Source: a virus. Taken from it: a stretch of 42,835 nt of DNA. Where the stretch lies: positions 1-42,835 of IMG/VR virus record IMGVR_UViG_3300042549_004752. The stretch is one strand, 5' to 3'. Shown piece by piece: positions 29,663-35,165 of the stretch; position 1 is the first letter of the stretch, and each line of letters starts with the position of its first letter. Both the position numbers and the translations under genes were made by a program. The notes below the pieces were generated by a model that searched no databases, was not told where the DNA came from, and was given only the letters and a program-made list of their open reading frames with translations.

Positions 29663-31234
29663 ATGGCATTTTCACGCCCTGGGGTGTACGTCCAAGAGTC
29701 ACTAACCCCTATTCAACCTATCGATGGGCCAGACTCGAATTCAGTAGCAGCTTTTGTTGGTGCTAACGATCGAGGCCCTGTTACACCAACACTAGTTACA
29801 TCCTGGACTCAGTATGTAAATCTTTTTGGTTCTTGGAACTCAACGTTCTCAAATGATCTTCCAATTGCAGTTTATTTGTTCTTTATAAACGGCGGACGCC
29901 AAGCGTATATTCTACGCGTAGTTACTACCGATAACGCTACTGCAGGAAACAATGCGGCTGTTGCTACTAGAACGCTTCTAGATAGAGCTTCAACAGCTGT
30001 AAACACCCTTGTACTAAGTTCAAAAAACCCTGGTACCTGGGGTAACCGCATCAGCTATACTATTACAAACGCCCCAACTACAGGGTATTTTAATTTATCT
30101 GTCTATTACAACGCACCAGCAGCCCCAACAGATGCGTATATTGTTGAAAAATTTACAGATTTAAGCATGGTTACTACTGACACAAGATACGCTGTAAACG
30201 TAATCAACACCTCTTCAACATATATTACAGCAGCGCAGCCTGCAACACCTTCAGCAACCGCTGCTCCTAATAACAACCCAGCTGTTGCCTCAACCCCAGT
30301 TGCATTAGTAGGTGCTACAGACGGCCTTGCGCCAACAGCAACAATTCTTACAACTGCTCTTTCTTTGCTTGACCCAATTAATACATCTTTGATACTAAAC
30401 CTTCCAAACAAAACTGACGATACCACTATCAACGCTGCGCTCTCATACGCAGCCGCTCGCGGAGATGTGTTTGTTGTGATTGACCCAGTTCCTGGGGCTG
30501 TAGTTGGCCCAGTTGCAACTGCTGGAACACAGCTGTACGTAACAGCAACCTATGGAACAAGCACAACTGGATCTTACGGTGCTGTTTACTATCCACAGCT
30601 TGTAATTAGCGACCCAACAGTTGGTATTGGCGCCGCCACAGGTGTTACCCGTAATGCCGCTCCTGGTGGAGCAATTGCTGGTTTGTACGCATCTACTGAT
30701 GCCGCACGCGGAGTGTTTAAAGCACCTGCAGGCCTTCAAAGCAGAATTGCTGGAGCAGTATCAGTTACTGCTCTATCAAATACTGACTTAGATTCACTAA
30801 ACAGTGCGGCCGTTCCAGTAAACGCTATTAAATTCGTTCCTGGCTCAGGAATTGTAGTTATGGGAGCTCGTACGCTTAAGTCAGGTTACATAGATCGTTA
30901 TGTTTCTGTTCGTCGTACCCTTATCTACTTAAATAAGTCTCTTAGAGAGTTAAGCGAGTTTGCAGTGTTTGAACCAAACGACCCATCTTTATGGCGTCGA
31001 CTTAACTCTACGCTGTCCTCTTTCTTGACCAATTTTTGGGCTCAAGGCGGCCTTAACGGAGCAACCCCAGCACAGGCTTTCTATGTAAAAGTAGATAGCA
31101 CTAATAATTCACAGGCATCAATTGATAACGGAGATCTTACAATTGAAGTCGGTGTTTCCCTTCAGCGCCCAGCTGAATTCGTAATCATCAAAATAGGTCA
31201 GTTCAACGGTAGAACTACCGTTACTACTGCGTAA
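29663..31234 (+). CDS. Tail sheath protein
   Basis: This 523-aa protein is the contractile sheath. It starts with FSRPGVYVQES and AFVGANDRGPVTPTLVTSW and ends with the well-conserved C-terminal domain (LWRRLNSTLSSFLTNFWAQGG, DNGDLTIEVGVSLQRPAEFV). The middle is a Gly/Ala/Thr-rich insertion region likely exposed on the sheath surface. AAGGAG precedes the ATG. It shows that the virion is a myovirus. Confidence 0.95.
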   Translation: MAFSRPGVYVQESLTPIQPIDGPDSNSVAAFVGANDRGPVTPTLVTSWTQYVNLFGSWNSTFSNDLPIAVYLFFINGGRQAYILRVVTTDNATAGNNAAVATRTLLDRASTAVNTLVLSSKNPGTWGNRISYTITNAPTTGYFNLSVYYNAPAAPTDAYIVEKFTDLSMVTTDTRYAVNVINTSSTYITAAQPATPSATAAPNNNPAVASTPVALVGATDGLAPTATILTTALSLLDPINTSLILNLPNKTDDTTINAALSYAAARGDVFVVIDPVPGAVVGPVATAGTQLYVTATYGTSTTGSYGAVYYPQLVISDPTVGIGAATGVTRNAAPGGAIAGLYASTDAARGVFKAPAGLQSRIAGAVSVTALSNTDLDSLNSAAVPVNAIKFVPGSGIVVMGARTLKSGYIDRYVSVRRTLIYLNKSLRELSEFAVFEPNDPSLWRRLNSTLSSFLTNFWAQGGLNGATPAQAFYVKVDSTNNSQASIDNGDLTIEVGVSLQRPAEFVIIKIGQFNGRTTVTTA

Positions 31235-31249
31235 AGGAGATAAATAAAA

Positions 31250-31882
31250 ATGGCAGGCGATACAGCAATCAATAGATTTTCTACTTTAGCCACTGACCCG
31301 TTACGTTCGTTTCGGTTTCGCGCAGAGTTTTCAGCAGTTGATAGCACATTTAGCGATAAGCTAGTTACAACCTCAGGACTAACACCAAGCCTTACCACTA
31401 TGTCTACAGGTTTTATTGGTGGATTTACATCCATCAGCGGCCTTAACATCACAACACAGGCTATCCAGTATCGTGAGGGTGGTTATAACACCACTGTTCA
31501 CCAAGTACCTGGTATGACTACGTTCTCACCAATCACGCTACAGCGCGGTGTTCTTTATGGAAATGACCAAGGAATCACATGGATGCGTGGCTTATTTGCT
31601 GCAGTATCAGGTGATGGCATCCAAGCTGGAGCAACCAACGCAAAGGGTTTCCGCGTAAATATGAAAATTTACGTAATGGATCACCCAAACTCAGCAGCTG
31701 CTAACACGCCACGTATGGGATTTGATATCCGTAATGCGTGGATTACTCAGCTAAGCTATACCGACTTAAATGCTAATGATGGTGCTCTTCTATTTGAATC
31801 AATGAACTTGGTTCATGAAGGCCTATCTGTATTCTTTACAGATTCGTCATTTAGCCCAACAGATAGCCGTTCACTCTCTTAA
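31250..31882 (+). CDS. Tail tube protein (gp19-like)
   Basis: This 210-aa inner tail tube protein reads RFSTLATDPLRSFRFRAEF near the N-terminus, then GFTSISGLNITTQAIQYREGGYN...VPGMTTFSPITLQRG and WMRGLFAA, followed by IRNAWITQLSYTDLNANDGALLFESMNLVHEG. This is the standard T4 gp19-type tail tube pattern. AAAGGAG is present. It directly follows the sheath gene. Confidence 0.92.
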   Translation: MAGDTAINRFSTLATDPLRSFRFRAEFSAVDSTFSDKLVTTSGLTPSLTTMSTGFIGGFTSISGLNITTQAIQYREGGYNTTVHQVPGMTTFSPITLQRGVLYGNDQGITWMRGLFAAVSGDGIQAGATNAKGFRVNMKIYVMDHPNSAAANTPRMGFDIRNAWITQLSYTDLNANDGALLFESMNLVHEGLSVFFTDSSFSPTDSRSLS

Positions 31883-31904: not shown

Positions 31905-32696
31905 GTGTCAAACGTCATCACTGATGCGGAACTCGTATCACAATTCGCAAAAAAAGCTATGGAAGAGCCCGAGGCGGTTATTACGTCTCGGGCACCTTCC
32001 GAAACTTCTGTAGACCTTCCTGGCGGGTACATTAAAAACGGTACCGTCATTAAAACCGCAGAAGTAAGAGAACTAAACGGAGCTGATGAAGAAGCCATTG
32101 CAAAGGCAGGGTCTCGTGCTAAAGCTCTACACGTTCTCCTTCAAAGGGGGCTTGTAAAGCTAGGAACAGATGAAGTTACTAAAGAAGATTTAGATAATCT
32201 TTTATCTGGTGACCGAGACGCTATCTTGCTTGGTATTCGCAAGGTTACTTTTGGAGAAGAAATGCCTTTAAATGTTCGTTGCTTTACGTGCAACGAAGAT
32301 CAAGAAGTTGTATTAAATCTAACTAAAGACGTACCAGTCGTAAAACTAGAAGACCCTATTGAGGGCCGTGCTTGGTTTGTAAACACTAAAAACGGTCAGG
32401 TAGGCGTAGCCCTACCTACTGGATTAGTCCAGAAAAAGTTAATGGATAACGCGGATAAAACAGCTGCTGAAATCAATACCCTTCTTCTATCTGGTTGCGT
32501 TCTTTCTGTTAACGGCGTGCCGTCTATGGGAGCGCACACTGTGCTTTCTCTTGGAATGATTGACCGAAGCAAAATTGTTGATGAAATTATTGAAAAGAAC
32601 CCAGGCCCACGCCTTGGGGAGGTGAGCAAAGCCTGCAAGGCATGCGGTGAAGATATAAGTCTTCCGTTGAGCTTGCTTGATTTGTTTCGACTCTAG
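31905..32696 (+). CDS. T4 gp26-like baseplate/tail assembly protein with zinc ribbon
   Basis: This 263-aa protein starts at GTG with AAGGAG upstream. The core DRDAILLGIRKVTFGEEMPLNVRC, with CFTC (about residue 126) and a late CKAC pair, fits the T4 gp26-like baseplate family with a zinc ribbon. It ends LLDLFRL-stop. In the final seven codons the +1 frame is open and continues for 51 codons, so part of the translation may shift (see the next feature). In myoviruses this position, between tube and tape measure, holds the tail assembly chaperones. Confidence 0.7.
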   Translation: MSNVITDAELVSQFAKKAMEEPEAVITSRAPSETSVDLPGGYIKNGTVIKTAEVRELNGADEEAIAKAGSRAKALHVLLQRGLVKLGTDEVTKEDLDNLLSGDRDAILLGIRKVTFGEEMPLNVRCFTCNEDQEVVLNLTKDVPVVKLEDPIEGRAWFVNTKNGQVGVALPTGLVQKKLMDNADKTAAEINTLLLSGCVLSVNGVPSMGAHTVLSLGMIDRSKIVDEIIEKNPGPRLGEVSKACKACGEDISLPLSLLDLFRL

Positions 32697-32844
32697 ATTA
32701 AGTACATATGATGATCTGTTAAACCAATACGAGGTATTAACAAGATCATTTACAGGTTGGACGTTGACAGAGATTAAAACGCTTTCTTATAGAGAGCGTT
32801 TAAACTGGTTAGATAGAGCGATGCGGTATAACGGAAGGAAATAG
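32671..32844 (+). CDS. Start-codon-less +1 frame extension of the gp26-like gene (probable programmed frameshift)
   Basis: The +1 frame is open from 32671 to a TAG at 32842-32844, with no ATG until eight codons from the end. From 32689 it encodes 51 residues (DSRLSTYDDLLNQYEVLTR, then GWTLTEIKTLSYRERLNWLD) that look like a genuine helical domain with conserved RERxNWL. The zero frame reads UUG UUU CGA CUC UAG. A tRNA-Phe slip from UUU to UUC would give a 312-aa fusion (261 + 51). UUU_CG(N) is the kind of +1 site used for influenza PA-X. TTG 32677 is an alternative start, without a ribosome site. Confidence 0.65.
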   Translation, partial: ACLICFDSRLSTYDDLLNQYEVLTRSFTGWTLTEIKTLSYRERLNWLDRAMRYNGRK

Positions 32845-32846
32845 CA

Positions 32847-35165
32847 ATGGCTGATAGCAAAAGCGGTATGAACTTACCATCACGTACTAGCTTTGTTATT
32901 TCCGACCTTAAAACTGGCATCTCTGGTATGCGCCAAGAGACCTCTCTTTTAAATCAAGAGTGGTCAAGCCTTGTTCAAAAAATGGGAACTGGCGTAACCA
33001 AATTTAATAGTGTTGGTGAAAGGGGTCCTGGCGGCCTAGCTTCAACTAAAGTTGCCCCAGACCCAGTATTTAACAATTCTAACCCTAATTCTGGAAACCT
33101 AGTTGCTGCTGGGGCTGCTGGCGGCGGAAGCGGATCTAACAATAACAATAGATCTGTTGGCGGCGGAGACGCAGGCGGCGGCGGCGGCGGTGGGGGCGGA
33201 AATCTATTCAGAAACCTCTCTGAGTTTATTAGTAATAATAAAACTGGCTCCGCACTATATGGCATGGGAACCGCACTAGGGGCGGCTCAAGCTACATCTG
33301 ACATGGTTCAAGCGCAGCTATTAATGCAGCGTACCGCAGCTAACATGCCGCTTGACCCAGGCTTATCAATAAGAGATGAGTTTACTGGTTCAAGCTTTGG
33401 TGAAAAAGCTTCTCGTTACGAATACGCCCGCCGTAGTGCTACACAAATGGCAAAAATGGGCCAAGCTAACAGCAGTATGGATGCGTTTAATGCGATGACT
33501 GCTGCTCAAAGCTACGGTTTGACAGGTACTAATTACTTGCAAAACGCAAACAACCCTTCTAAGTTTGAAGGCAGTATTGCAGCACAAATAGCAAACACCT
33601 CTAATTTAACTCCAGGTATTGGCCTTGAAGGCATGACCCGTGCAGCTGGCGGAATGCAAAAAGGCCGCAATGTAAACATGCTTAAAGGTGTTGGAATACA
33701 GATCCGCGACTCTAATGGGAACATGAAGGGCCCAGAAGAGATTATTAATGATCTTTGGAAAAAGATTTGTCGTGACTACTCTGGCGCGTACGGCTCAGGA
33801 AAAACACCATCTGAGCGTGAGATACAAATAGGTTTTCAACAAGGAAACTCTATGGACCAGCTGGTTCAGAATATGTTTGGAGACGATCCTTTAATTTATA
33901 TGACTATTAAAAATGGTCTTATTTATAAAGCCAAAAGCGGTGGCGGCGCCATTACTAAAGAGGATGTAACTAAGTTTGGTATGACAACCGACGCAGTTAA
34001 CACTTTTGCAATGAAACAGGCGCTTGGCACAGAACAGCTTGGTTTAGTGTCTAAGTTTGGAGCTGGCGCGTACAACGTCACACAAACGGGGCTTAATTTT
34101 GTAACAGGCACTCTAAACGCAATAGATGCTGCGGCTGGGCCTGGAGCGGGACCATTAAAGGTACTTAACGGAATTGCTGCAGTTATGCAGACACTTGGCG
34201 GCGCTGCTGGTGGAGCTGGTTCAATGTTCATGAATTGGTTAATGAAAGCTGTTGGTCTTCAAGGCAGAGCAACAGGCGGATCAGTAGACGATAAACAACC
34301 GTACATTGTTGGTGAAAAAGGCCCAGAACTTTTTATTCCAAAAACTGATGGAGTAATTATTCCAAACGATTTAGGACCATTTCGCCACAAAGGCGGAGGC
34401 GTTCTAGCAAAAGGCCACAACCACGGCTGGGGTAAAGCACCTCTAGCTGAATCAGCAGTTAAAAACATACTCTCACAAGCTGGGTTTACTGGTCAAGCGC
34501 TTGAAGACGCTTTACAAATTGCTCAAGGCGAGTCTGGATATAACCCATTAGCGTTTAATGGAAACACTAGCACTGGTGACACTTCATATGGATTAATGCA
34601 AATTAACATGCTTGGAAATCTTGGGCCAGGCCGTCGTAAATGGTTTGGTCTTAAATCAGATGAAGATCTATACAATCCTTTAGTAAATGCTAAAGCAGCT
34701 TACGCACTATACAAGAGCAAAGGTTACAGGTTTGACAGAGACTGGGTAACTCAATCTAAAAAGCTTGCTAGCAAAGGAGTGCCAGGAGGAGATTCTAGTA
34801 GTACTTCCTCCTCATCTTCTTCTTCTTCTTCTTCTTCTTCTTCTTCATCGGCAGATACAGACAGCGCAGTTCTGGATGAAAAGGGCATTGCAGCAATTAC
34901 TCAGTACTTAGGTAAAGATGTTAGTGACTCTTATAAACAATATTTAAAAACTGGCGAAATTGGAAATATTAGCCTTGCAGGTCTTATGGGTGGCGGCGCT
35001 GCTGGAGCAGGCCTTGCTTCAACGCTTGGTAGCGCAATAACCAACAACTACGGCGGAGTTACATTTAATATGAACGTTCTAGGCGGGGACCCTAAAACTC
35101 TTGAAAGCACGTTTAAGGGCTGGTTTGAAAAGCTTAAAACAGGAGAAGGGGTGAGTAGTCAATAA
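32847..35165 (+). CDS. Tape measure protein with embedded lysozyme domain
   Basis: This 772-aa protein sets tail length. The N-terminus is followed by a disordered Asn/Gly-rich section with a poly-Gly run (about residues 100-120), helical regions, then hydrophobic segments (about 420-470, GPGAGPLKVLNGIAAVMQTLGGAAGG). A lysozyme domain (about 530-640, candidate catalytic Glu562 in QGESGYN, GDTSYGLMQINMLG) resembles the endolysin. A poly-Ser linker follows (about 650-668). It probably opens the cell wall during DNA entry. It is short for a tape measure. It starts 2 nt after the frameshift extension's stop. Confidence 0.88.
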   Translation: MADSKSGMNLPSRTSFVISDLKTGISGMRQETSLLNQEWSSLVQKMGTGVTKFNSVGERGPGGLASTKVAPDPVFNNSNPNSGNLVAAGAAGGGSGSNNNNRSVGGGDAGGGGGGGGGNLFRNLSEFISNNKTGSALYGMGTALGAAQATSDMVQAQLLMQRTAANMPLDPGLSIRDEFTGSSFGEKASRYEYARRSATQMAKMGQANSSMDAFNAMTAAQSYGLTGTNYLQNANNPSKFEGSIAAQIANTSNLTPGIGLEGMTRAAGGMQKGRNVNMLKGVGIQIRDSNGNMKGPEEIINDLWKKICRDYSGAYGSGKTPSEREIQIGFQQGNSMDQLVQNMFGDDPLIYMTIKNGLIYKAKSGGGAITKEDVTKFGMTTDAVNTFAMKQALGTEQLGLVSKFGAGAYNVTQTGLNFVTGTLNAIDAAAGPGAGPLKVLNGIAAVMQTLGGAAGGAGSMFMNWLMKAVGLQGRATGGSVDDKQPYIVGEKGPELFIPKTDGVIIPNDLGPFRHKGGGVLAKGHNHGWGKAPLAESAVKNILSQAGFTGQALEDALQIAQGESGYNPLAFNGNTSTGDTSYGLMQINMLGNLGPGRRKWFGLKSDEDLYNPLVNAKAAYALYKSKGYRFDRDWVTQSKKLASKGVPGGDSSSTSSSSSSSSSSSSSSSADTDSAVLDEKGIAAITQYLGKDVSDSYKQYLKTGEIGNISLAGLMGGGAAGAGLASTLGSAITNNYGGVTFNMNVLGGDPKTLESTFKGWFEKLKTGEGVSSQ

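Follow-up and report, generated by a model that had tools for sequence, protein, structure and literature searches.

A conserved UUU_C slip site and a probable +1 ribosomal frameshift in a phage tail assembly chaperone gene

Our analysis suggests that the gp26-like gene of a phage encodes two tail assembly chaperone isoforms of 263 and 312 amino acids, which most probably arise by +1 programmed ribosomal frameshifting (we put the probability at roughly 0.94). Since the extension stands in a constant +1 relation to the upstream gene, the sequence UUU_C is kept even in GC-rich loci and the extension has no conserved start codon of its own, we infer that the shift is a programmed +1 event carried out by the P-site tRNA-Phe. 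Such a UUU_C slip site, so far known mainly from influenza and plant viruses, is here found in a phage tail chaperone gene.

The window, i.e. the whole stretch of DNA that was analysed, is a virus record of 42,835 nt (IMGVR_UViG_3300042549_004752, positions 1 to 42,835) and belongs to a contractile-tailed phage, as indicated by its tail gene set of sheath, tube, gp26-like, tape-measure and baseplate genes (Table 1). The gp26-like gene sits between the tail tube and tape-measure genes, as expected of a tail assembly chaperone. Its zero-frame end (32670-32696) reads AGC TTG CTT GAT TTG TTT CGA CTC TAG, and from 32671 onward the +1 frame meets no stop codon until 32842-32844, which gives an extension of 49 codons beyond the zero-frame stop, or 52 when counted from F261. 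From the slip codon onward the +1 frame reads FDSRLSTYDDLLNQYEVLTRSFTGWTLTEIKTLSYRERLNWLDRAMRYNGRK, with UUC GAC as the expected post-slip reading at the site itself. Reading the sequence directly, we found the overlap and the extension at the positions given in a preliminary description of this DNA, and the ATG at 32847 confirms that the extension ends 2 nt before the tape measure. Diagnostic tryptic peptides for the window phage would be ACGEDISLPLSLLDLFDSR for the long form and ACGEDISLPLSLLDLFR for the short form. The tape-measure protein itself carries a transglycosylase/lysozyme-like domain.

Table 1. Features of the chaperone locus in the window
Feature	Position	Strand	Remarks
Sheath gene	29663-31234
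Tail tube protein gene	31250..31882	+	PF06841, E 1.9e-24
Short isoform: gp26-like protein, putative tail assembly chaperone, 263 aa	31905..32696	+	GTG start; PF12322
Synonymously invariant element CCAGGCCCACGCCTTGGGGAGGTGA	32601..32625	+	possible hairpin and internal Shine-Dalgarno
+1-frame extension	32671..32844	+	translated part: F261 (32686-32688 as UUC) onward
Predicted long isoform, 312 aa	31905-32687 joined to extension	+
Putative slip site UUG_UUU_CGA	32682..32690	+	E-site UUG, P-site UUU (32685-32687), A-site CGA
Zero-frame stop UAG	32694..32696	+	two codons past slip codon
Tape-measure protein gene, lytic transglycosylase domain	32847..35165	+	PF18896, PF01464; phrog_8892 tape measure

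The gp26-like protein matches PF12322, the family of T4 gp26 and gp51, with 38.5 bits against a curated cut-off of 24.5 (E 1.3e-9), and the same family is recovered in 23/23 aligned short forms. Structures were predicted separately for the short form and for the extension. The short form gave a confident model (pLDDT 86.6), which in a viral library matches T4-like baseplate hub assembly proteins with E down to 5e-21; Bacillus phage BCD7 is also among the fold matches. The top match in the PDB was the HK97 tail assembly chaperone 2ob9 (probability 0.96, TM 0.51 by target), but with an E of 0.23, and a sequence search of the PDB found no relative. Gene position and the PF12322 matches in relatives bear out the earlier assignment of the protein to the tail assembly chaperones, to which this HK97 match may add. 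For the extension three helices are predicted. Its resemblance to PF06528 (P2 GpE) is weak, at 14.6 bits and thus under the curated cut-off of 23; GpE corresponds to the C-terminal portion of the frameshift extension E' in P2. P2 E' and the window extension have a W..SE...S..E...W pattern in common, and a profile scan of the extension showed a conservation too low for a pattern.

Relatives were drawn from viral contigs, annotated phages and bacterial genomes, and a profile search over all of them placed the extension in the +1 frame in 184 of the 184 loci that hold both parts. These loci correspond to 106 distinct junctions, and because distinct homologous junctions in this number all lie in +1, chance can be excluded. 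The proposed direction of the frameshift therefore holds, and an extension in the zero frame, for which we looked as the opposite case, did not occur within the family. The variation of the extension by codon position likewise fits coding in the +1 frame. Among the fetched relatives, the profile search recognised no extension in six loci: L017 and L129 are one contig present twice, with a frame break in mid-gene, L157 lies at a contig end, L194 is an isolated remnant without neighbouring tail genes, L114 comes from a distant jumbo phage, and in L022 the extension is fused to the tape measure. In this last, near-identical relative (L022:3604-3830) a 20-bp deletion takes out the extension stop and the tape-measure start and puts the extension in frame with the tape measure, either as a variant or as an assembly error. 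The same frameshift arrangement was also found in tail modules within large Streptomyces and Terracoccus genome contigs (L190, L193, L195), which are probably prophages.

At the slip site itself, the codon UUU followed by the base C is present in 106/106 distinct junctions, where two junctions reading TTG TTT CGC TTT TAG were counted at the earlier TTT and thus as motif carriers. The preceding codon is UUG in 95 junctions, CUG in seven, UUA in three and ACC in one, and synonymous conservation analysis shows that UUG at this E-site position is conserved far above the codon-usage expectation. UUU is followed by CGN in 97 of the 106 junctions and by CAA, CAG, CCG or CUC in the other nine. The UUU_CGA of the window belongs by sequence to the UUU_CGN class; the zero-frame stop lies two or three codons past UUU in all junctions. 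The strongest argument for a constraint on the site beyond chance or protein coding is the retention of UUU in GC-rich genomes, as the codon is kept in actinobacterial loci of 61-68% GC with an own UUU frequency of only 0.03-0.19 among Phe codons. When the UUU frequencies among the Phe codons of the individual loci are multiplied, the result is ~1e-14 over 51 clusters and ~1e-7 over 12 clusters (60% identity), values which serve as a guide only, because the clusters share descent.

This comparison supports UUU_C as the slip codon and F261 as the fusion residue, both of which had been named in the preliminary description. A rare CGA codon as the conserved driver of the shift, in contrast, was rejected, since CGA follows UUU in only 17 of the 106 junctions and CGC, CGU or CAA serve in its place, with CGC or CGU in most relatives. 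Codon usage in the structural genes of the window, from which that of the host may differ, is 3.2 per thousand for CGA, 6.0 for CGC, 10.4 for CGU and 22.1 for CAA, and by this measure the latter three are not clearly slow codons. Judged from the junctions, the conserved feature is UUG_UUU_C and not the rare CGA.

One different reading of the locus is that the extension represents a separate small gene that starts independently, possibly at a non-ATG codon, for example coupled to the upstream stop. Annotators drew an own ORF in the Streptomyces phages LuckySocke, Alone3, GiJojo and BRock, and the window has a TTG in the +1 frame at 32677, which makes the earlier term “start-less” nearly but not entirely exact. 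However, this TTG is without an SD-like sequence, 29 of the 68 representatives have no ATG, GTG or TTG near the junction and only two have an ATG, and the ORF annotated in LuckySocke begins 84 nt into the extension and would therefore lose conserved residues. A proximal internal SD within 22 nt upstream is absent in 66 of the 68 representatives, and no start codon that is conserved within the family and preceded by a ribosome site was found. A separate gene also leaves the invariant UUU_C unexplained, and we consider it very unlikely. Slightly less probable still is that the +1 frame is reached by -2 slippage or by transcriptional slippage instead of a +1 shift at UUU. A shift by -2, as in phage Mu (PMC5009743), would open this frame too, but UUG UUU gives no -2 re-pairing, the site in the window has no run of more than three identical bases, and it is UUU_C alone that is invariant among the 106 junctions. 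A sequencing or assembly error in one continuous frame is refuted by the 184/184 loci with 106 distinct sequences from many metagenomes and isolate genomes, even though an indel may occur in any single contig, and its probability is negligible.

In the +1 frameshifting that we favour, the majority of ribosomes would terminate at the UAG of UUG UUU CGA CUC UAG, which yields the 263-aa gp26-like protein. In a minority, the P-site tRNA-Phe (anticodon GAA) on UUU would shift forward by one base to UUC, where it pairs better, and the slipped ribosomes would accept GAC and add 51 residues after F261. If the lambda gpG/gpGT pair is taken as a model, the short form may coat the tape measure, and the less abundant long form may additionally recruit the tail tube protein.

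Frameshifts in tail assembly chaperone genes comprise -1 shifts in lambda gpG/gpGT and P2 E/E+E', a -2 shift in Mu and +1 shifts in some others (PMC5009743). The lambda and P2 chaperone genes resemble the one described here in their position between tube and tape measure and in the short and long product per gene, but they rely on a -1 shift at a slippery heptamer and encode gpG or gpE, whereas here a PF12322 protein would be extended by a +1 shift at UUU_C. Vandenendeviridae and Andersonviridae also have a frameshifted chaperone gene preceding the tape measure, but with a -1 shift at GTTTTT and the extension in the other frame (PMC12846349). Parallels to the slip site come from RNA viruses: UUU_C slippage is established for influenza A PA-X, where tRNA-Phe re-pairs from UUU to UUC at UCC_UUU_CGU (PMC3498833), and UUU_CGN slippage has been proposed for plant amalgaviruses (PMC5052127). 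According to Firth et al. (PMC3498833), +1 sites that combine UUU_C with a limited choice of A- and E-site codons may form a general class. These viral sites and the phage site have in common the P-site UUU, a subsequent C, mostly as part of CGN, and a restricted preceding codon. In contrast to the phage gene, they are read by eukaryotic ribosomes, the E-site codon of influenza is UCC instead of UUG, and the phage family also includes CAA, CAG, CCG and CUC as following codons. Within the literature searched, the UUU_CGN motif was reported for eukaryotic viruses or genes only. A bacterial +1 frameshift with UUU as shift codon is described for FseA (msi172-msi171) of the rhizobial element ICEMlSymR7A (PMC5009743, PMC10359603); FseA is the transcription activator of a conjugative element and not a phage tail gene, and the likeness lies in the shift codon.

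Besides the slip site, we searched the surrounding sequence for stimulatory signals. A downstream stem or pseudoknot gave no signal (mean fold z about -0.8 on either side of the site), and the single match in an Rfam search was far under the gathering score. Upstream, codons 234-240 are nearly invariant at the nucleotide level in the 57 representatives of the freshwater clade, in the context listed in Table 1. The element includes a perfect internal Shine-Dalgarno sequence, GGAGGTGA, at 32618-32625, whose anti-SD match is stronger in computed energy than the SDs of seven gene starts tested. All 57 freshwater-clade representatives carry GGGGAGGTG, whose end lies exactly 60 nt upstream of the slip codon, and the 11 outgroup representatives lack it. 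As the outgroups nevertheless keep UUU_C, the element is dispensable for the shift in general. For the freshwater clade, a signal of two parts is conceivable but rather doubtful, in which UUG_UUU_CGN would be combined with a far-upstream element that stalls the following ribosomes, or sets their distance, some two footprints upstream of the slip site; the fixed 60-nt spacing may be a by-product of the conserved protein, and such a distal stimulator of bacterial +1 frameshifting was not found in the literature searched. A role of the distal SD as start signal for the extension was discarded, since the +1 frame is not open at that point. The neighbouring genes show no comparable cluster of synonymous conservation except at the end of the sheath gene, where the last codons (about 516-523; 31207-31234), just before the tube gene, are under unusually strong synonymous conservation in relatives.

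The PF12322 family also allows a comparison with T4, where gp26 is paralogous to gp51 (hhalign, E 1.8e-18). PF12322 spans gp26 almost to its end, but gp51 only over residues 1-201 of 249, and therefore gp51 has a C-terminal tail roughly as long as the extension. When aligned with gp51, the fused window protein matches across the junction with E ~1e-4, compared to 0.2 or worse for ten shuffled or reversed controls, and the similarity of the gp51 tail to the extension alone is not significant. Since gp51 is related to gp26 and ends in a similar tail, T4 seems to obtain the same chaperone pair from two separate genes and without a frameshift. In the annotation of Acinetobacter phage Stupor, gp26 and gp51 are listed as tape measure protein assembly chaperones, and Vladimirov et al. 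2022 reportedly deal with identifiable chaperone genes in T4-like phages.

Downstream frames that end similarly were also observed in Listeria phage LIS04, Streptococcus phage GXN1 and Pseudomonas phage Cassandra (L328, L329, L330), whose annotations show no fusion. Based on a single sequence each, the downstream frame is +1 and without UUU_C in LIS04, +1 with UUC UUU CGU in GXN1, where CCC CGA is also a possible site, and -1 after U_UUU_UUC in Cassandra; the shift sites are our own reading and thus putative. Weak similarity (E 0.8) marks the Cassandra gene as PF12322-like. Taken together, this suggests that one protein family provides the same chaperone pair by three routes: a +1 slip in the window, an apparent -1 shift at U_UUU_UUC in Cassandra and two genes in T4.

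The chaperone family offers about a hundred natural variants of a UUU_C site in one gene, read by bacterial ribosomes and including GC-rich hosts, and the roles of the E- and A-site codons are therefore directly testable. Members of the family are also present in the Streptomyces phages LuckySocke, pSt2308, GiJojo, BRock and Alone3 (L110, L111, L112, L113, L115). In these five records the extension is either omitted or drawn as a truncated separate ORF, and the annotations, which lack the fusion, could be corrected.
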